A stretch of DNA of 64,000 nucleotides from Dehalococcoidia bacterium (GCA_020850615.1 JADZEI010000018.1:1-64000); one strand, 5' to 3'. Counted from the first letter of the stretch, positions 40,731 to 50,563 are shown. Notes: generated by a model from the letters alone, not told the origin. Made by a program: numbers and translations.

Positions 40731-41894
40731 TTACAGGCCCTTCCACGCCTCCAGGCGGCGCATCCCCTCTTCGAGGCGGTCGTCGGGCGTGGTCACGCTC
40801 AGGCGGATGTAGCCCTCGCCGTTCACGCCGTAGCCCCGGCCCGGGGTCACCACCACGCCCGTGTCCTCTATCAGCCGGGCGGCGTACTCCGCGCTGGTCA
40901 CGCCCTCAGGCAGCTTGGCCCACACGTAGAGCGATGCTTTCGGCGTGTCGACTTCGAGCCCAACGCGGCGCAGCACCTCGACGATGCGGTCGCGGCGCCG
41001 CTGGTAGATCGCGTTGTGCTCGTCGACCGTTTCCTGGGGCCCGTACACGGCTTCGATGGCCATGCGCTGGATCGCCTGCGGGATGCCACTGTCGATGTTC
41101 GACTTGACGCGCATGAGGGCGTCGACCATCTGCTGGTTGCCCACGAGCATGCCGATGCGCCAGCCGGTCATGTTGTAGATCTTCGACCAGCTGTTGAACT
41201 CGACCGCCACCTCGCGCGCGCCGGGCACCTGGAAGATGCTGACCGGCTTGTAGCCGTCGTAGGCGACGTCGCAGTAGGGATTGTCGTGGAGGATCGCCAC
41301 GTCGTACTTCCGCGCGAACGCGACGGCCTTCTCGAAGAACGCCAGGTCAGCGACGGCACCCGTCGGGTTGTTTGGGTAGTTGAGCCAGAGCACCTTCGCA
41401 CGCTGGGCGACATCCGCCGGGATCGCGTCGAGGTCCGGGAGCCAGCCCGATTCGCGCGTGCAGTTCAGCTTGTACGACTCGCCGCCAGCGAACATCGTGC
41501 CGATCTCGTAGACCGGGTAGCCCGGGTCCGGCACGAGCGCGATGTCACCGGGGTCGATGAAGCAGAGGGCGATGTGCGCGATGCCCTCTTTCGAACCGAT
41601 GAGCGGGAGCGTCTCCTTCATCGGCTCGAAGCGCACCTCGAAGCGGCGGAAGTACCAGTCGGAGATGGCCTGGCCCAACTCCGGGAGCCCCTCGGACTCG
41701 GGATAGCGATGGTTGACCGGCTCGTCCGCCGCCCGGTGGAGGGCATCGAGGATGTTGGGCGGCGTGGGCAGGTCCGGGTCGCCGATGCCGAAGGTGACGA
41801 TGTCGACGCCCTGGGCGCGCTTGGCGGCGATCTTCTTGGAGATCTCGGCGAAGAGATACGGAGGCAGGGCCTCGACGCGACGGGCGAGCTTCAT
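40731..41894 (-). CDS. dapL: LL-diaminopimelate aminotransferase or close class I aminotransferase
   Basis: A 387-residue PLP-dependent class I/II aminotransferase. Features: VTFGIGDPDLPTPP, HRYPESEGLPELGQAI, WLNYPNNPTGAV, and the PLP lysine in FNSWSKIYNMTGWRIG. The NYPNNPTGA/SWSKIYNMTGWR combination is typical of DapL, which makes LL-DAP in one step from tetrahydrodipicolinate. dapF, the next enzyme, lies at 49724-50563. The start has GGAG about 10 bases upstream. A malY/alaT-type activity cannot be fully excluded. Confidence 0.82.
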   Translation of the reverse strand: MKLARRVEALPPYLFAEISKKIAAKRAQGVDIVTFGIGDPDLPTPPNILDALHRAADEPVNHRYPESEGLPELGQAISDWYFRRFEVRFEPMKETLPLIGSKEGIAHIALCFIDPGDIALVPDPGYPVYEIGTMFAGGESYKLNCTRESGWLPDLDAIPADVAQRAKVLWLNYPNNPTGAVADLAFFEKAVAFARKYDVAILHDNPYCDVAYDGYKPVSIFQVPGAREVAVEFNSWSKIYNMTGWRIGMLVGNQQMVDALMRVKSNIDSGIPQAIQRMAIEAVYGPQETVDEHNAIYQRRRDRIVEVLRRVGLEVDTPKASLYVWAKLPEGVTSAEYAARLIEDTGVVVTPGRGYGVNGEGYIRLSVTTPDDRLEEGMRRLEAWKGL

Positions 41895-42870: not shown

Positions 42871-44127
42871 TTGAAACTCGAGAGGTCGGTCTCGTGGGGC
42901 ATCGCCCCGGCCCTGGTCACCCTGATGCTCGTCCTCGCGTCCTTCGTACCGGCGACGGGCGGGACACCGGTGGTCCGGGCACAGGCTCCTCAATGCGGGC
43001 CCATGGATGTGGCGTTCATCATCGACTCGACGGGAAGCATGGGCGGCGCCATCAACAACGTGAAGTCGGAGCTCGGCGCCATCCTTGGCGACATCGCGGC
43101 GGCGTCCGGCAACGACTACAGCCTCGCCGTGGTGCGGTTCGAAGACAACGTCACCATCGACGAGACCTTCGCGCCGAACAACCAGGCGAGTGCCGCGGCA
43201 GACATCAGTGCGATGATCGCAAGCGGCGGACTCAATGAACCGGAAGCATCCGACGAGTCGCTGAACACCGTCGTAAACGCCCTCGCTGCGGCCGGCCGGC
43301 CCCAGAACATCGACTTCACGCCGGCCTACCGTGCAGGCGCCCTGAAGATCGCGGTGCTGGTCACCGACGCGCGCCCGGGCGGCTTCGATGACGAATACGT
43401 CGCCGGGACGGACGACGTGAACGCGCACAACGTGGCCCTCGCCGCGGCGGCGCAGGGCATCAAGATCTCGGCGATCCATGTCCCCGGTGGGTTCGATGGG
43501 ACCACCGCCGTCATCATGAACGACTACGCGACGACGAGCGGCGGCCGGTACGTCCTCACCGCGCCTGACGGCTCGGGCACGGGCACGGCCATCCGCGAGA
43601 TCATCAACGCCTGCGGCAGCGGCGAGGGACCGGACCTGGTCGTCACCAAGACGCCGAAGCCGGGCCAGCCGGCGCCGCGGCCGGGCGGGCTGTACTCGTT
43701 CATCATCCAGGTCACCAACGAAGGCACCGACCCGACGCCTCCGCCCCCCACGGACGTGACGCTGCGCGACGACCTCTCGGGGATCGGCTCGTTCTCCTCG
43801 TGGACAGCGAACTCCGGCAACTGCTACAGCTCCCGGCCATACGTCAACTGTAGCCGCGGCCGGCTCAATCCCGGCCAGACGTGGTGGGTCGAGATCACGG
43901 TGCGGCTGCCGCGCACCTGCGGCGAGTACATCAACCGCGTGACGGTCGACCCGAACGACACCATCCCGGAGACCAACGAGGCGAACAACGCCGCAGAGCT
44001 GCTGGTCGATGTGCCTTGCATCACGAGCCACATCCCGTCCTGGTACGAGCTGATTGGAGGCGGGACGCCGGATGGCGCCACCGCCGGCTCCGGCGTCGTC
44101 GCCCGGGCGAGGTTCGCCACCATCTGA
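42871..44127 (+). CDS. Secreted von Willebrand factor A protein with CARDB/DUF11-like domain
   Basis: A 418-residue exported protein. It has a long signal peptide (MKLERSVSWGIAPALVTLMLVLASF, cleavage near VVRAQA). A vWA domain (about 45-255) carries the MIDAS motif DSTGSM (D52 onward). A beta-sandwich follows (about 265-390) of the CARDB/DUF11 type, recognisable by VTNEGTDPTPPP and PETNEANNAAEL. vWA domains bind protein partners through a metal ion, often in adhesion or surface assembly. The TTG at 42871 has GGAGGAG 7 bases upstream and directly precedes the signal peptide. It is the first of four exported proteins in a row. Confidence 0.85.
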   Translation: MKLERSVSWGIAPALVTLMLVLASFVPATGGTPVVRAQAPQCGPMDVAFIIDSTGSMGGAINNVKSELGAILGDIAAASGNDYSLAVVRFEDNVTIDETFAPNNQASAAADISAMIASGGLNEPEASDESLNTVVNALAAAGRPQNIDFTPAYRAGALKIAVLVTDARPGGFDDEYVAGTDDVNAHNVALAAAAQGIKISAIHVPGGFDGTTAVIMNDYATTSGGRYVLTAPDGSGTGTAIREIINACGSGEGPDLVVTKTPKPGQPAPRPGGLYSFIIQVTNEGTDPTPPPPTDVTLRDDLSGIGSFSSWTANSGNCYSSRPYVNCSRGRLNPGQTWWVEITVRLPRTCGEYINRVTVDPNDTIPETNEANNAAELLVDVPCITSHIPSWYELIGGGTPDGATAGSGVVARARFATI

Positions 44128-44487
44128 CGACTCTCCCGTGATGTGCCGCGGGCTGGCCCGGGTTGCAGGGCCGGGCCAGCCCCAGCGGCGACGGGGATCC
44201 GGCTGCTACAGGCCATGGCCTCGCAGCGACACGGTCCCGGCATCCGGTGCCCGCATGGGTGCCGGGGCCGGCAGAAACGGAACCGGGCCGGCCTGCGAAG
44301 CGATCGAACGAGGAGGTGTGTATGGAGCGAGATTGAGTCAGCCCTGGAGGGCGTAGGGCACCCGCCAGGGCCGGAGTACGGCATCCGCGCTCAAACGCCT
44401 AGCCGCACGGAAATCATACCCCTGTGGCGGGCAGACGATTGTGAAGCCGCATCTACGACGGCTCGCAACTTCTCACAGGAGGAGAAC
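44128..44487 (+). other. Intergenic leader with hairpins and a four-codon frame
   Basis: A 360-base gap. It starts with a strong hairpin (44150-44182). A 7-bp pairing CCCGGCA/TGCCGGG follows near 44234-44264. At 44311-44316 there is a perfect AGGAGG followed 5 bases later by ATG and a stop after four codons (Met-Glu-Arg-Asp). A second strong ribosome site (AGGAGGAG, about 44477-44484) serves the next gene. No longer gene is supported. Confidence 0.5.
44150..44182 (+). terminator. Hairpin after the vWA gene
   Basis: GGGCTGGCCCGG (44150-44161) pairs perfectly over 12 bases with CCGGGCCAGCCC (44171-44182), 22 bases after the vWA stop. There is no T-run. It may be a terminator or an mRNA-stabilising hairpin that lowers downstream expression. 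Confidence 0.6.
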
Positions 44488-45669
44488 ATGTCTTTGACCA
44501 GGCGATTCAACGTCGCGACCTTGCTCGCGCTCGCCGCGGTCCTCGCTGCACTGGTCGTGCAGGGAAGGGCATTCGCAGACCCGACCGTGCCGACGACAGG
44601 CGAGGTCACCAGCTCCGGCGTCGCCCCTTACATCGAATGCAGCTGGGCGCTCCCGGACATCAACGATGACGCCGGGGACGGCATGCAGTACGGCGACGAC
44701 GACGACCCGGCAACGGGTCCGGACCCGTCATACCCGTGCGACATGGCGGACAGCGGCCGGCCGGGCATGGCCGATGGCGCGACGGGCCTGATCCAGGTGC
44801 TCCCCAACGCGCACGATGAGCCGACCGAAAAGAGCGTCGAGCTCTGGGCAGCCGTCGACCACGAGAACGGCATCAGCAACATCGACGACGTGTACTGGAA
44901 GGTCTTCCACCCGGATGGGAGCTTCAAGGTGCAGGTCCACGGCGTTAGCGAAGAGTGCACAGGACCGGAGGGCATGTTCGGCGCCGCCACCACGACCGGG
45001 CAGGTAACCAGCGTCGCCATCAACGATGTGAACAACGGCATCATCGCGCTCTGCCAGCAGGGCGTGAAGGCGATCTACTCGGCCACCTTCGATATTTCGA
45101 AGCATCAGCCGTCCGGCGACTACCGCATCGAGACGTACGCCGTTGCCGATGGCAACCAGAGCATGATGACGAGCTACATCTACGTCGTGCCGTTCTACAA
45201 CCTCGTGACCGACTTCACCACGGTGAGCTACGGGACCATCTCGCCCGGCCTTACCAAGATCGTCGCCGGTGACCTGGTCATGGGCACGGCCGACCGGCCG
45301 ACCATCCAGAACACGGGCAACTCCGGCATGGGCATCGGTGTCCGGTTCAGCCCGATGCTCCAGCAGGACGTCTCTGGCCCGAAGGAGATCGTCCAGTTCG
45401 ACGCGCGGTTCGGGCGCAGCCCGTCCACGCTCCAGACGATCGACCCGATCTACGCCGGCGAGCTGGCGGAATTCGATGACGACCCGGCGCGGGTCCTCTG
45501 CCCGAACCGGATCGGCAAGATCGACTTCTCCGTCCATCCGCCGAGCACCCTGCCGGCGGGCCAATACGCCGGCGACGTCGAGATCGTCGCCCGCAGCGCC
45601 CCGTACTGCCTGACCGACGACGGCAGCGTTAGCCCGCTGACGGTCGAAGACCCGGTCGCGGCACCGTAA
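44488..45669 (+). CDS. Exported protein of unknown family, beta-rich
   Basis: A 393-residue protein with a signal peptide (about 1-30, ending GRAFA). I recognise no known family. The mature protein is acidic, with an aspartate-rich stretch (GDDDDPATGPDP, 69-80). Two parts recur in the exported protein at 47084-48880. One is residues 115-225 (SVELWAAV ... DGSFK ... YSATF). The other is residues 242-369 (FTTVSYGTISPG, RPTIQNTGNSG, GVRFSPM, LCPNR, PPSTLPAGQYAGDV). There is no membrane anchor. The ATG at 44488 follows AGGAGGAG, one of the strongest ribosome sites in the window, so high expression is likely. Confidence 0.75.
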   Translation: MSLTRRFNVATLLALAAVLAALVVQGRAFADPTVPTTGEVTSSGVAPYIECSWALPDINDDAGDGMQYGDDDDPATGPDPSYPCDMADSGRPGMADGATGLIQVLPNAHDEPTEKSVELWAAVDHENGISNIDDVYWKVFHPDGSFKVQVHGVSEECTGPEGMFGAATTTGQVTSVAINDVNNGIIALCQQGVKAIYSATFDISKHQPSGDYRIETYAVADGNQSMMTSYIYVVPFYNLVTDFTTVSYGTISPGLTKIVAGDLVMGTADRPTIQNTGNSGMGIGVRFSPMLQQDVSGPKEIVQFDARFGRSPSTLQTIDPIYAGELAEFDDDPARVLCPNRIGKIDFSVHPPSTLPAGQYAGDVEIVARSAPYCLTDDGSVSPLTVEDPVAAP

Positions 45670-45681
45670 GCCAACAGCCTG

Positions 45682-45789
45682 CGCGGGCTTACGCCCGCGT
45701 TGGTGGTGAGGGGGATGGGGGCATCCCCCTCACCCGGCCGGGGTTCGAACGTCGCGTTCGGCCCGGCCGGGTGAGGTCTCTGCAAGACC
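45682..45789 (+). repeat. Series of four intergenic hairpins
   Basis: Four stems lie in 108 bases between two exported-protein genes. They are CGCGGGC/GCCCGCG at 45682-45699; a 10-bp G-rich stem at 45708-45731 (GAGGGGGATG and complement); a perfect 14-bp stem at 45729-45775 (CTCACCCGGCCGGG and complement) with an inner CGAACG/CGTTCG pairing; and GGTCT/AGACC at 45775-45789. Stems two and three share three bases and would compete. The likely role is attenuation or mRNA end protection. Confidence 0.65.
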
Positions 45790-45808
45790 AGACATGGAGG
45801 CGAATGCA

Positions 45809-47071
45809 ATGCGGACACGCTTCTTTCGGACGATGATCCTGCTCGTCCTGGTCGCCGGGGCAGCTGCCGCCAGCGCGCGGGAAGCAACCCGTGCCGATGG
45901 TGGCATCGGCGTCTATCCCACCCAGGTTGTGTTCGATGACGCGCTTCGGGGTGGCCAGTACTTCAGCACGCTGGGCGTGATCAACAACCTCGAAGGCGAG
46001 CGCACCTTCGCCTTCGAAGCCGAGGGAGACATCGCCCCGTGGGTGTCATTCACCGACGTCGACGACCGCACAATGCCTGTCACCGAGGTGACGGCGCCGC
46101 GCGGCCGCGATGGCTACGTCCTCCTGCGGCTCTCGGTGCCGGATTCCGCGAGCAACGGCGTCTACCGCGGCACCGTGACGACGACGGTCCCGCTCGGCGG
46201 GGAGGGCAGCGACGAGGATGAGTCCGGCTCGGCCGTCACCGTGGCCGCCGTGATCGACGTCGAAGCGCGGGTCACGGGCGTGCAGAAGATCGACGGCAGC
46301 CTGCTCGACGTCGCCGTGACCGACGTGGAGGTGGGCGTCCCGCTGCGCGTCCGCTCGGTTGTCGCCAACCGCAGCAACGTCCGCGTGGTCCCCGATGTGC
46401 AGGTCGCGATCCTGAACGGGACGACCACGGTGGCGACTGCCGCGACGGTCGACGCACCGATCGACCCCGACGAGACGCGCACGATCGAGACGCAGTGGCC
46501 GACGGACGCCGCACCGCCGGGCGACTACTCGGTCAAGGTCTCGGCGACGCTGCCGGGCATGCAGCTCGGCGAAAGGACGATGAGGTTCCGGGTCCTGCCC
46601 CGTGGCACGCTTACGCGCAGCGGCGCATTCGAGAACCTGGAGCTGGTGAACGACCCCACGGCGGGCGGGGTGGCCAAGATCATCGCGACCTTCCGGAACA
46701 CGGGCGAGATCGAATCGACGGCCGTCTTCGCGGGCGAGCTCTACCGCGATGGCGTGCTGGTGAAACCGATCGTGAGCCTGCAGAAGCTGGTCCGAAAGGA
46801 CGAGGCGCAGGAGCTCGAAGCGCTCGTCGAGGTGCCCGGCACGGGGACCTACGTCCTCCGCGGCAAGGTCAACTATGAAGGAAAGGAGACCGAGGTCCGC
46901 GAGCTCCTGTTCACCATCGCGCCCGAGGTCGTCGAAGGGCGCGGCTCGCCCTCCGGGGTCGTCTGGGGGTTCGCCGGCGGTGCCGCCGCCCTGGTGGTGG
47001 TCGCGGCCGCGAGCAGCGGCTGGTTCGTCGTCCGGCGCAAACGCCAGCCAGTCAACACGGGCGGCAGGTAG
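45809..47071 (+). CDS. Exported Ig-like protein with C-terminal membrane anchor
   Basis: A 420-residue protein with a signal peptide (MRTRFFRTMILLVLVAGAAAASA). The long beta-rich ectodomain starts GGIGVYPTQVVFDDALRGGQY, reminiscent of DUF916/NEW3-type Ig-like domains. At least two later Ig-like units follow (VPLRVRSVVANRSNVRVVPDVQV and VAKIIATFRNTGEIESTAVF). A C-terminal helix (about 382-406, GFAGGAAALVVVAAASSGW) and a basic tail RRKR anchor it in the membrane. It may tether the neighbouring exported proteins. I chose the ATG at 45809, preceded by GGAGG; an earlier in-frame ATG at 45794 overlaps that site. Confidence 0.78.
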   Translation: MRTRFFRTMILLVLVAGAAAASAREATRADGGIGVYPTQVVFDDALRGGQYFSTLGVINNLEGERTFAFEAEGDIAPWVSFTDVDDRTMPVTEVTAPRGRDGYVLLRLSVPDSASNGVYRGTVTTTVPLGGEGSDEDESGSAVTVAAVIDVEARVTGVQKIDGSLLDVAVTDVEVGVPLRVRSVVANRSNVRVVPDVQVAILNGTTTVATAATVDAPIDPDETRTIETQWPTDAAPPGDYSVKVSATLPGMQLGERTMRFRVLPRGTLTRSGAFENLELVNDPTAGGVAKIIATFRNTGEIESTAVFAGELYRDGVLVKPIVSLQKLVRKDEAQELEALVEVPGTGTYVLRGKVNYEGKETEVRELLFTIAPEVVEGRGSPSGVVWGFAGGAAALVVVAAASSGWFVVRRKRQPVNTGGR

Positions 47072-47083
47072 AGGACGGGCGCC

Positions 47084-48880
47084 ATGAACACGCGAAGGAC
47101 TCGAGGCAACACGCCGGTGGTCGCCGGGTCGCTCAGCGCGCTGGCGGGCGTGCTCCTGGTCGCGGCGTCGATCGCCGGGCCGGGAAGCGGCGCTCGCGCG
47201 GTCGAGCCGGAGGAATGTGCAAGCGTGACACCCGAGGTGACCATCGCCGCGCTGGCGGACGACACGGCGACGGCCAACCCGACGGACACGGAAACGGCGG
47301 TGCCCACCGCCACCGCCGAGGTCACGGATTCGCCCGCGCCCACCGCCACCGCAACCGCGACAGAGGAACCGGCACCCACGGCTACGCCATCCCCATCCGC
47401 GACGCCCAGCCCAGCGGCAACGGCGGACGCGAGCTCGACGGCTGAGCCCACGGACACGCCCGGTGCCGATGCGACGGAGTCCGCCACGCCGAGCCCAACG
47501 CCCACTCCACCGCCGAGCCCCACGCCAACGCCGACGGAGGTACCAACGCCGACGCCAATGCCATCGCCCGGGCCCTCCCCGGAGCCGTCCGACACGCCCG
47601 CGACGGTCGCTGCCGCGGCGGCGGACGACGGCAGCCCGGCGCCGGCCGATTCGCCCACGGCAACGGCCTCGACCGAGGCGGCGCCGAGCGCAACGCCGTG
47701 TACCCCGGCCGCGACCAGCTCCGAGACCGAAACGACGGAGGAGAGCACCGAGACCGCAACCCCGGCAACTGACGAAGACGGCTCGAGCACGCCAACCGGC
47801 ACCTCGACGCCAACGCCCGGTGGCACGCCGAGCGCGACCCTGAGCCCCACGCCGACCGGCACATCGACGCTCTCACCCACGCCGAAGCCGGCCGAACTCG
47901 CGTGCCAGTGGCTCGCGACAGCGACGGACAGCGCGTCCCCCGGGCCGGACCCGGCCTGGGACGAGCGCTGCGCTGCGCCCGTCCCGGGGGACCTGTCGGT
48001 CCAGGCCCACGCGGGCGACGTCTCCGGCAAGCTGTCCGTGACGCTGTGGACGGTGGTGCGCAACAGCTCGCGGGACAGCGATATCGTCGCGACGCTCCGC
48101 CGGGCGGACGGCAGCGAGCTGGCACTGGCGCCGGCGTTCGTCGAAACGCGCTGCGCCGCCCCGTCGCCACTGCCAGCCACGCCGGTGGCGACGCCCTCAC
48201 CCGCGCTGGACGAGCCCGCGCTGGACGCCCCCGCGCTGGACGCCCCCGCTCCCGGCACACCCGAGCCCACCGACGCCACGGTGACACCGTCGCCCACGGC
48301 TGCGGCGCCGACTCCCTGCGGCGACTCGCTCACGCTGTTCCGCGCCACCTTCCCGGTGTCGTACCGTGATGCCTGCGGCGTCTACGAAGCGGCGACGAGC
48401 CTGGCCGGCGAACGCCCGGCGATGCTCGCCTTCGAGAACCGCTGCTTCGTGGCCCTCGAGCTCGACTTCGACGCCCTCTCCTGGGGCCGGATTGTGCCCG
48501 GCCAGCTGACCGGCATCACCGGCGACCTCGCCTGGGGCGCGCGGGACACGCGCCCCACGGTGCGGAACGCCGGCAACGCGCCGCTCTCCCTCGGTGTGCG
48601 GTTCGAACCCCTGACACAGGGCGGCGCCAGCGGCGCGCCGGCCACGCTGGGCAGCTTCCGCGCCTGCCTCGGGCTCGATGCGGGCGGTGTGCAGTGTGTC
48701 GAAGTGAGCGCAGACCGGACGGCGTGGGTCGGCGAGGAGACCGGCCAGGCGCTGTGTCCCGGCCAGGCTGCGCGGCTTGACCTTTTCGTGCTGCCCCCCG
48801 CGACCGTGCCCGAAGGGACCTACGCGGGCGACATCTCGTTCCCGTCGAGGCCGGCGACCGGCGCAACCTGCGGTCCGTAG
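47084..48880 (+). CDS. Exported protein with P/T/S-rich stalk, paralogue of the 44488 product
   Basis: A 598-residue exported protein. A signal segment (about 10-40) is followed by a low-complexity stalk (about 60-270) of TPTP, TATA, SPSP and EPTDTP units, like heavily glycosylated mucin-type linkers. The globular part matches the protein at 44488 in two blocks split by a second P/A/T-rich insert (358-412). Residues 318-355 have SVTLWTVV and DGSELA; residues 416-586 have TLFRATF, FDALSWGRIVPGQ, RPTVRNAGNAP, GVRFEPL, LCPGQ and PPATVPEGTYAGD. No membrane anchor is seen. It starts 13 bases after the anchored protein and closes the cluster. Confidence 0.75.
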   Translation: MNTRRTRGNTPVVAGSLSALAGVLLVAASIAGPGSGARAVEPEECASVTPEVTIAALADDTATANPTDTETAVPTATAEVTDSPAPTATATATEEPAPTATPSPSATPSPAATADASSTAEPTDTPGADATESATPSPTPTPPPSPTPTPTEVPTPTPMPSPGPSPEPSDTPATVAAAAADDGSPAPADSPTATASTEAAPSATPCTPAATSSETETTEESTETATPATDEDGSSTPTGTSTPTPGGTPSATLSPTPTGTSTLSPTPKPAELACQWLATATDSASPGPDPAWDERCAAPVPGDLSVQAHAGDVSGKLSVTLWTVVRNSSRDSDIVATLRRADGSELALAPAFVETRCAAPSPLPATPVATPSPALDEPALDAPALDAPAPGTPEPTDATVTPSPTAAAPTPCGDSLTLFRATFPVSYRDACGVYEAATSLAGERPAMLAFENRCFVALELDFDALSWGRIVPGQLTGITGDLAWGARDTRPTVRNAGNAPLSLGVRFEPLTQGGASGAPATLGSFRACLGLDAGGVQCVEVSADRTAWVGEETGQALCPGQAARLDLFVLPPATVPEGTYAGDISFPSRPATGATCGP

Positions 48881-48884
48881 GAGG

Positions 48885-49727
48885 TCAGCGAGAAGGCTGC
48901 CAGCTGATCAGCAGCTCGCGTGCCACGGGCACCCACGCCGGGCGGAACCCGCCGCCCGGCTCCAGGGCGAACAGCTCGTCGAAGTGGGCGTCGAGCGTTG
49001 CGCGCAGGTCGGCGTCGGCGGGGTCGGCGTCGATGGTCTCGGCGGCGTAGGCGAGCGCGGCCTCGCGCGTGGGCCGGGCAGTGGAGCCCCGCGTCACGCG
49101 GAACGGCTCCGGAAGGACGCGAACGTCCGCGAGGATGCCCATCTCCCAGAGCACGGGCAGGAGTTCGCGGTACGACGGCGCCGGTTCCAGGCGCTCCCCC
49201 TGGGCCAGCTCGTAGAGTGCGGCGGGATGGTCCGGCGGCGGCACGGACCAGACAGAGATGACCACCAGCCGCCGGGCGGCCCGCTCCAGCGCCGCCAGGA
49301 ACGGCACGATCTCGTGGATGAAGTACGTGACGTTGTTGACGATCACCACGTCCGCCTCGAACTGCGCGGCGTCGCCGGGCCAGGAGGCGTCAACCGCGCA
49401 CGCGTTGGTGATCCCGGCGCCCGCGGCCGACTCGTCGAACTGCGCCCGCATCGCCGGCGAGGGCTCGAGGTTCGTGACCTCGCGGCAGCGCAGGGCGAGC
49501 GGCAGGCACACGCGGCCGGCACCTCCTCCGACATCGAGCACGGTATCGCCCGGCTCGACCAGCGCAGCGAGCGCGGCCAGGTTGGCGTCCGGTTCGCGCC
49601 GGGGGTCGAGACGGAAGGATGCGGCGCGCCTGTTCCAGCGGTCGTTGCCTTCGACCTTGCGCCAGCGGGCCCGCTGGGCCGACATCGCTTCGACGCGGGC
49701 GGCGTAGAGCCCGGCCGCGCTGGTCAC
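48885..49727 (-). CDS. SAM-dependent methyltransferase (class I)
   Basis: A 280-residue methyltransferase with SAM motif I VLDVGGGAGRVCLPLA, an acidic motif II NLEPSPAM and motif IV ADVVIVNNVTYF. The remaining sequence does not show its substrate. The GTG at 49727 overlaps the dapF stop by four bases (GTGA), so it is coupled to dapF. The longer open frame upstream overlaps dapF and is rejected. It is convergent with the exported-protein cluster, with a gap of only four bases. Confidence 0.8.
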   Translation of the reverse strand: MTSAAGLYAARVEAMSAQRARWRKVEGNDRWNRRAASFRLDPRREPDANLAALAALVEPGDTVLDVGGGAGRVCLPLALRCREVTNLEPSPAMRAQFDESAAGAGITNACAVDASWPGDAAQFEADVVIVNNVTYFIHEIVPFLAALERAARRLVVISVWSVPPPDHPAALYELAQGERLEPAPSYRELLPVLWEMGILADVRVLPEPFRVTRGSTARPTREAALAYAAETIDADPADADLRATLDAHFDELFALEPGGGFRPAWVPVARELLISWQPSR

Positions 49728-50563
49728 GCCTCGTGCCAGTCGGCCTCGAAGACGCGCGTCGCCGGGCCGGTCATGAACACGGAGCCCTGTCCGTCCCACT
49801 CGAGCACCAGGTCGCCGCCCGGGAGCGAGTCGACGATGCGGTCACCGGTGAAGCCGCGGAGGCGCGAGGCGGCGCACACGGCGCTCGCGGAGGTGCCGCT
49901 GGCGAGGGTGATCCCGGAGCCGCGCTCCCACACGCGGTGCTTCACACGGCCGCGGTCCAGCACCTGGACCACCTGGAAGTTCGTCCGGCGGGGGAAGAGC
50001 TGGTGGTGCTCCACCAGCGGCCCGACTCGTTCGAGCGGGAAGTCGTCCGGGTCCGAGTCGATGTAGTGGATCGCGTGCGGGTTGCCCATGCTGACGAGCG
50101 TGAGCTTGAGGTCGACGCCGTCCACGGTGAGCGGCAGGTCCACCACCGGCCCGGGGCCCTCGACGTTCGCCGGCAGCGTCGCGGGGTCGAACCGGGGCGC
50201 GCCCATGTCGACGCGCGCAGCTGTGATGACACTACCCTCCCGGAAGATCTGCAGCTTCTTGATGCCGTCCAGCGTCTCGACCGTGACAACCTCGCGGTCG
50301 TGCGGGACGAGGCCCTCTTCCATCGCGAACTTCGCCACGCAACGGATGCCGTTCCCGCACATCTCTGCCTCGGAGCCGTCGGCGTTGAACATGCGCATCC
50401 GCATGTCGGCGACCGTGGACGGCAGCGCGAGGATGAGCCCGTCGCTGCCGACGCCGAAGTGCCGGTCGCTCACCTTCCGGGCGAGCTCGGGCCAATCCCG
50501 CTCTTCGTTCGGGAGGACGTAGACGTAGTCGTTGCCGAGGCCGTGCATCTTCGTGACGCGCAT
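49724..50563 (-). CDS. dapF: Diaminopimelate epimerase
   Basis: A 279-residue epimerase that turns LL-DAP into meso-DAP for lysine and peptidoglycan. The two active-site cysteines lie in EMCGNGIRC and, weakly recognisable, in SASAVCAAS. MHGLGNDYVYV at the start and GSGITLASGTSA near the end are characteristic. The start at 50563 (MRVTKMHGLGND) fits the family; the frame runs 47 codons further up without family character. It is divergent from the MFS gene across 100 bases. With dapL at 40731 it supports the DapL route. Confidence 0.93.
   Translation of the reverse strand: MRVTKMHGLGNDYVYVLPNEERDWPELARKVSDRHFGVGSDGLILALPSTVADMRMRMFNADGSEAEMCGNGIRCVAKFAMEEGLVPHDREVVTVETLDGIKKLQIFREGSVITAARVDMGAPRFDPATLPANVEGPGPVVDLPLTVDGVDLKLTLVSMGNPHAIHYIDSDPDDFPLERVGPLVEHHQLFPRRTNFQVVQVLDRGRVKHRVWERGSGITLASGTSASAVCAASRLRGFTGDRIVDSLPGGDLVLEWDGQGSVFMTGPATRVFEADWHEA

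Follow-up and report, generated by a model that had tools for sequence, protein, structure and literature searches.

WxL clusters are defined by at least one WxLIP together with two WxL-domain proteins (PMC10599100), and WxL systems have been described as an almost entirely Bacilli trait, tied to host attachment (PMC9772566; PMC10599100). For these systems, Hassan et al. reported an AlphaFold-predicted insertion between WxLIP and WxL, and proposed that the helix of WxLIP inserts into the membrane of the host (PMC10599100). In a limited search of one open-access library, the results listed included neither a paper that connects WxL or DUF916 with Chloroflexota nor a prior description of the cassette considered here. 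In this study, we analysed a window of 64,000 nucleotides (the whole stretch of DNA) from a Dehalococcoidia bacterium, in which four genes, g1 to g4, lie in a row (table 1). Our findings favour a model where g2, g3, and g4 probably make up a WxL-type surface complex, its WxL domain either replaced by another beta-sandwich subunit or diverged past recognition.

Table 1. Genes and hairpins of the locus and the neighbouring genes (positions in the window)
Feature	Position	Strand	Description
Aminotransferase gene, neighbour	40731-41894	-	
g1	42871-44127	+	Exported VWA + DUF11/CARDB protein, 418 aa; TTG start behind GGAGGAG
Hairpin after g1	44150-44185	+	Strong, no U-tract; fold z -3.55
g2	44488-45669	+	Small exported subunit, two predicted beta-sandwich domains; small-WxL position
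Two tandem long hairpins, g2-g3 gap	45700-45775	+	MFE -83.9 kcal/mol, z -7.3
g3	45809-47071	+	WxLIP-superfamily anchor (assigned from sequence); three predicted Ig domains + C-terminal transmembrane helix
g4	47084-48880	+	Large subunit; stalk, then full-length g2 paralogue; large-WxL position
Methyltransferase gene, neighbour	48885-49799	-	

The original prediction, made from the DNA alone, had placed here four plus-strand genes for exported proteins between unrelated genes, and both points hold: an N-terminal hydrophobic signal segment is present in all four products, with a second, C-terminal, one in g3 only, and the neighbours encode an aminotransferase and a methyltransferase, both on the minus strand. 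It had also read g1 as a vWA/CARDB protein, in agreement with our search; the best Pfam match of g1 is DUF11 (54.1 bits), VWA (PF00092, 37.8 bits) and CARDB (33 bits) are likewise above their Pfam cut-offs, and the MIDAS motif DSTGSM is of the DxTxS form, metal binding being predicted from this motif. A search of g2, g3, and g4 against Pfam and NCBIfam gave no match above cut-off. Third-codon GC is 0.87-0.89 in each of the four genes. The spacing between them is uneven: the g1-g2 gap (360 bp) holds a strong hairpin and the g2-g3 gap (139 bp) very strong ones, and tight coupling is confined to the g3-g4 pair (12 bp). The hairpin after g1 suggests that g1 is transcribed separately from g2; a scan for sigma-70 promoters found none. 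The predicted lack of a sortase is true of the locus but not of the source genome, where seven sortase-domain genes lie elsewhere (contigs C29, C60, C74, C79, C32, and C91); thus, sortase-dependent anchoring exists beside the g2-g3-g4 cassette. Peptidoglycan transglycosylases are also encoded in this genome, and therefore a cell wall is present to bind or cross.

As judged from sequence, g3 is a member of the WxLIP (DUF916/DUF3324) superfamily. We file it as a distant relative and not as a Pfam-defined member, since g3 has no direct match above cut-off to PF06030 or PF11797; a search of the source genome with PF06030 found none, and two of 14 g3-family members give sub-threshold matches to PF11797 (WxLIP_HBD; best E 5e-4). 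Searching PDB sequences with g3 alone returned no matches; with a profile of the 14 g3 proteins, the only PDB entries below 0.01 are those of the Enterococcus faecium protein EfmWxLIP1 (9i25_C, E 6.1e-4; 9i1y_A, 6.9e-4). In profile-profile comparisons (hhalign, local mode with reversed controls), the first two domains of g3 align collinearly with Dehalococcoidia WxLIPs (99.5%, E 4e-22; reversed control 1.5%), and these in turn with Bacillota WxLIPs (98.0%, E 3e-13), reversed controls staying at or below 2.7% across the WxLIP comparisons. The homology of g3 covers the WxLIP PGBD and HBD domains, in that order. The direct comparison of g3 with Bacillota WxLIPs is weak (32-56%), so the link depends on the Dehalococcoidia intermediates. 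Like WxLIPs, g3 has a signal peptide and a C-terminal helix: one hydrophobic segment is N-terminal, and the other, picked up by windows that begin at 381-391, is followed by RRKR. Its AF2 model (pLDDT 85) comprises three Ig domains and matches 9i25_C (Foldseek E 7e-9) and 9i1y_B (VIA-align Z 13.2 over 214 residues, model 3-239, two Ig domains). The large rmsd of the latter alignment (13 A) is probably due to the angle between the domains. WxLIP is equalled in fold-search score by other Ig-like and chaperone structures, and for this reason the sequence chain is our main argument. In the model, two long strands (88-100 and 114-128) are joined by a tip of low confidence (104-111), and the region aligns with its counterpart in EfmWxLIP1; from this alignment, the 88-128 hairpin of g3 would correspond to the one predicted to insert in the WxLIP/WxL pair.

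The partners of g3 are related to each other. g2 and g4 share 34% identity over 178 aa (E 5e-27) and are paralogues; in alignment with relatives, all of g4 beyond an acidic stalk (P/T/S/A 77% over 222 residues, about residues 49-270) corresponds to mature g2. The locus is thus an anchor flanked by two copies of one subunit. The original prediction overlooked this paralogy, treating g2 and g4 as distinct proteins among four complementary components, where there are one anchor, two subunit copies, and one accessory; its tether and stalk roles suit g3 and g4. Its statement that the genes could not be matched to a named envelope system no longer applies, given the WxLIP homology of g3 and a layout that is that of WxL clusters, the adhesion loci known from lactic-acid bacteria: in the Bacillota loci L071, L072, and L077 the order is small WxL, WxLIP, large WxL, with 13, 23, and 13 bp before the large gene, against 12 bp in the window. 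Nevertheless, the locus, with one WxLIP relative, falls outside the definition of a WxL cluster, because no WxL domain is detectable in g2 or g4. WxL domains are recognised by a PF13731 match and two W-x-L motifs, and g2 and g4 give no such signal: PF13731 has no match in the source genome at E <= 10, no W-x-L motif was found in the second domain of g2, and hhalign of g2/g4 against WxL gives 1-9% only, so that profile comparison rejects them as WxL by sequence. The WxL structure 9i25_A is absent among the fold matches listed for the g2 model, which is no evidence that the folds differ. It could be argued that the second domain of g2 and g4 is a true, very diverged, tryptophan-free WxL domain, and the cassette simply a WxL cluster. 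The gene order and spacing shared with WxL clusters would agree with this, as would the 26-residue C-terminal hairpin of g2 (IDFSVHPPSTLPAGQYAGDVEI), which aligns with the ends of Dehalococcoidia WxL domains at 9% (reversed control 0.2%); yet that probability is far under significance, neither WxL motif is present, g2 and g4 carry an extra conserved first domain that WxL proteins lack, and Dehalococcoidia hold separate, recognisable WxL + WxLIP loci too. We thus regard it as unlikely.

The latter loci emerged among the weaker class-wide matches of g3, which include three Dehalococcoidia WxLIPs (L128, L133, L134). Two of them, from L128 and L133, pass the Pfam cut-off for WxLIP_PGBD (scores of 47.8 and 29.2 vs. 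27.3 bits), and that of L134 is just under it. As for their small neighbours, one in L134 is above the WxL cut-off, a second in L134 matches WxL at a sub-threshold score, as does that in L128, and the L133 neighbour has no WxL match. The loci are found at L134 230-3741 (G011), L133 5975-7640 (G001), and L128 7256-9458 (G190), and one of these genomes, G011, carries both systems, a WxL + WxLIP locus and a g2-g3 cassette. Two L134 proteins combine an N-terminal plastocyanin-like copper domain with a C-terminal WxL domain, one of them above the Pfam cut-off.

The AF2 model of g2 (pLDDT 90.5) shows two beta-sandwich domains, and its top Foldseek matches are tandem CfaB donor-strand pilin subunits (E 5e-8). 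VIA-align scores the CfaB match at Z 7.6, in a 7-8 range typical of common arrangements, and we therefore assign g2 and g4 to no known family; a g2 profile has no matches among PDB sequences. These similarities raise the case of a chaperone-assisted donor-strand fibre, with g3 as a membrane-tethered PapD/FimC-like chaperone or base and g2 and g4 as polymerising pilin-like subunits, g2 the major one and g4 a stalked tip or base. Besides the CfaB matches, the first Ig domain of g3 resembles FimC and SfaE (Z about 11.5, 2.3-2.7 A over 106-114 residues, single-domain matches), and the hairpins that follow g2 would be in keeping with overproduction of that subunit. We consider such a fibre rather improbable: no usher or pilus assembly gene was seen in the cassette, nor an usher gene among its neighbours, the g2-CfaB alignment stays at the modest Z given above, and g3, with three Ig domains ahead of its C-terminal transmembrane helix, is WxLIP-like and unlike periplasmic chaperones.

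From the g2 sequence alone the search for related loci found none; from an alignment of the g2 family it retrieved 11, and the fetched loci carry Dehalococcoidia/Chloroflexota record titles. In a tree of 35 g2/g4 domains the upstream or downstream label changes at least five times, which rules out a single ancient g2/g4 duplication; doubling or conversion therefore occurred repeatedly. The domain is also found in other contexts. In contigs of two other Dehalococcoidia MAGs it is followed by seven cadherins and fn3, and further fusions in the same MAG contigs join it to fn3 alone or to a PT repeat and an F5/8C-like region. Because it is fused to exchangeable cadherin/fn3 or F5/8C-like modules, the g2/g4 domain looks like a docking platform, a common part bearing exchangeable binding parts by analogy with large WxL proteins. 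Many g2-domain genes with cadherin and fn3 modules occur in the MAGs PL25a_bin.1 and PL23a_bin.120 (L053, L054, L056-L059, L061), in frames of up to 1830 aa, an apparent lineage expansion.

Co-occurrence of g2 and g3 is strict. Among 61 relatives searched, the five genomes with g2 are precisely those with g3; across the class, the g2/g4 profile matches 13 of 393 genomes, the strong g3 matches (E <= 9e-53; next match 3e-16) fall in the same 13, and in every one the g3 gene adjoins a g2-family gene. When 400 genomes across the phylum were searched, convincing matches outside the class were limited to one, G549, of another Chloroflexota class, which has two sets: in one, g2, g3, and g4 are all complete and the downstream gene encodes a P/T/S-rich stalk, whereas in the other the contig ends within the downstream gene. 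That these are unrelated exported neighbours, g3 resembling WxLIP through generic Ig similarity, is scarcely credible, for although Ig-like folds match many proteins and several cassettes lack g1, co-occurrence and adjacency are complete in 13 of 13 genomes for genes present in only 3% of the class genomes sampled, and the two-domain profile match is collinear with clean reversed controls. The proposal that the four genes serve one surface apparatus is backed by conserved order and perfect co-occurrence, and we found neither a failure to co-occur nor a separate known system for each protein; as for the apparatus being particular to this lineage, this stands for the 13 class genomes but not for the other class. 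Directly behind the cassette of G058 (L019 10745-13505), two small exported proteins of AFTATNTV type lie on either side of a signal peptidase-like protein that contains a DUF5305 domain. This arrangement resembles SipW-type loci.

Hairpins of unrelated sequence occupy the g2-g3 gap in G011, G003, G005, G301, and G549, and are less striking in G058 and in the second G549 set; the hairpins of the window (45700-45775) and of this gap in L017, L018, L020, L063, and L126 are very stable. Of four Bacillota loci tested at the same place, two show a hairpin of terminator type followed by a U-run (z about -5), and in a third the hairpin is weaker. The window hairpin matches only itself, which rules out a genome-wide repeat. 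Such hairpins may act as a partial terminator or attenuator, would be consistent with a surplus of the small subunit, and could amount to a conserved attenuation reached by convergent hairpins.

g1 lies outside the core and is, by its sequence relationships, an accessory of the extended locus, because the strong relatives of its DUF11 domain sit near cassettes and bear differing heads. In 26 genomes, the strong matches of this domain are g1 itself, three copies in G003, all flanking the cassette, and one in G058, about 4 kb downstream of it; weak matches (E >= 2e-7) lie elsewhere in G011 and G301. Close copies are thus located only near the cassette. The heads vary, being VWA in the window and other, with no assigned family, in G003, and g1 is missing from several cassettes. 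The DUF11 accessories of G003 (L018 5649-7202) and G058 (L019 14217-15245) have in common a C-terminal tail type, FDSNGNGLWDNGEDIVLDVNGNGIFD, that is perhaps calcium-binding.

Overall, we suggest that g3, as a relative of WxLIP, would serve as the anchor and sit in the cell membrane through its C-terminal helix; of its Ig domains, the first is PGBD-like, the second is HBD-like, and the third is additional. A helix in the cell's own membrane seems the simpler reading for a free-living cell. The soluble small g2 and the stalked large g4, which have no anchor of their own, would dock on g3. Beta-strand completion is the most likely mode, pairing the long hairpin of the first g3 domain with the second sandwich of g2 or g4 in the way that AlphaFold predicts for the WxLIP/WxL pair, and g2 may outnumber g3 and g4. 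The stalk projected by g4 would be disordered and probably glycosylated, g1 and other DUF11 proteins of its kind may add interchangeable heads, and the whole could serve as an adhesion or coat platform. Whether the WxLIP anchor has taken on, in g2/g4, a two-domain partner of unrelated origin is a question on which we lean slightly to the negative; if it has, WxLIP-like proteins would be general surface adaptors with a swappable partner rather than WxL-specific, and the g2/g4 family a novel domain by which Chloroflexota adhesins dock. A relative in Chloroflexota whose partner differs would set the general principle, a small and a large subunit docked on an Ig anchor, apart from WxL chemistry and host binding. 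The cassette would explain how large unanchored adhesins stay on the cells of mostly uncultured bacteria, and two unnamed protein families gain a hypothesis of function; since WxLIP-WxL structures exist (9i25), the docking prediction is directly testable.

Compared with CFA/I (CfaB) and the chaperone-usher pili (FimC, Caf1M), the likeness is one of fold, in the chaperone-like first domain of g3 and the pilin-like match of g2; the cassette differs in its membrane-anchored three-Ig g3, with no usher seen and no relationship detected by sequence. Pfam places g1 among the DUF11/CARDB and VWA surface proteins; it differs in that the strong relatives of its DUF11 subtype, which three genomes possess, lie near the cassette. 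The WxLIPs of the Dehalococcoidia WxL + WxLIP loci (L128, L133, L134) are homologous to g3, and that of L128 also has an added CARDB-type Ig domain; these loci, L133 excepted, have neighbours with WxL signal, whereas the window genome has no PF13731 or PF06030 match. With Bacillota WxL clusters (Csc-type; PMC10599100; PMC9772566) the cassette shares a transmembrane-anchored Ig protein between small and large soluble partners, gene order, orientation and tight anchor-large gene coupling, a hairpin that in some loci follows the small gene, and variable modules on the large partners. It departs from them in g2 and g4, which have an extra domain and neither WxL motif nor sequence match, in the third Ig domain of g3, and in having VWA/DUF11 accessories and no LPXTG gene. 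The layout and the anchor are thus common to WxL clusters, and what is new is the partner family, g2/g4, hitherto undescribed.
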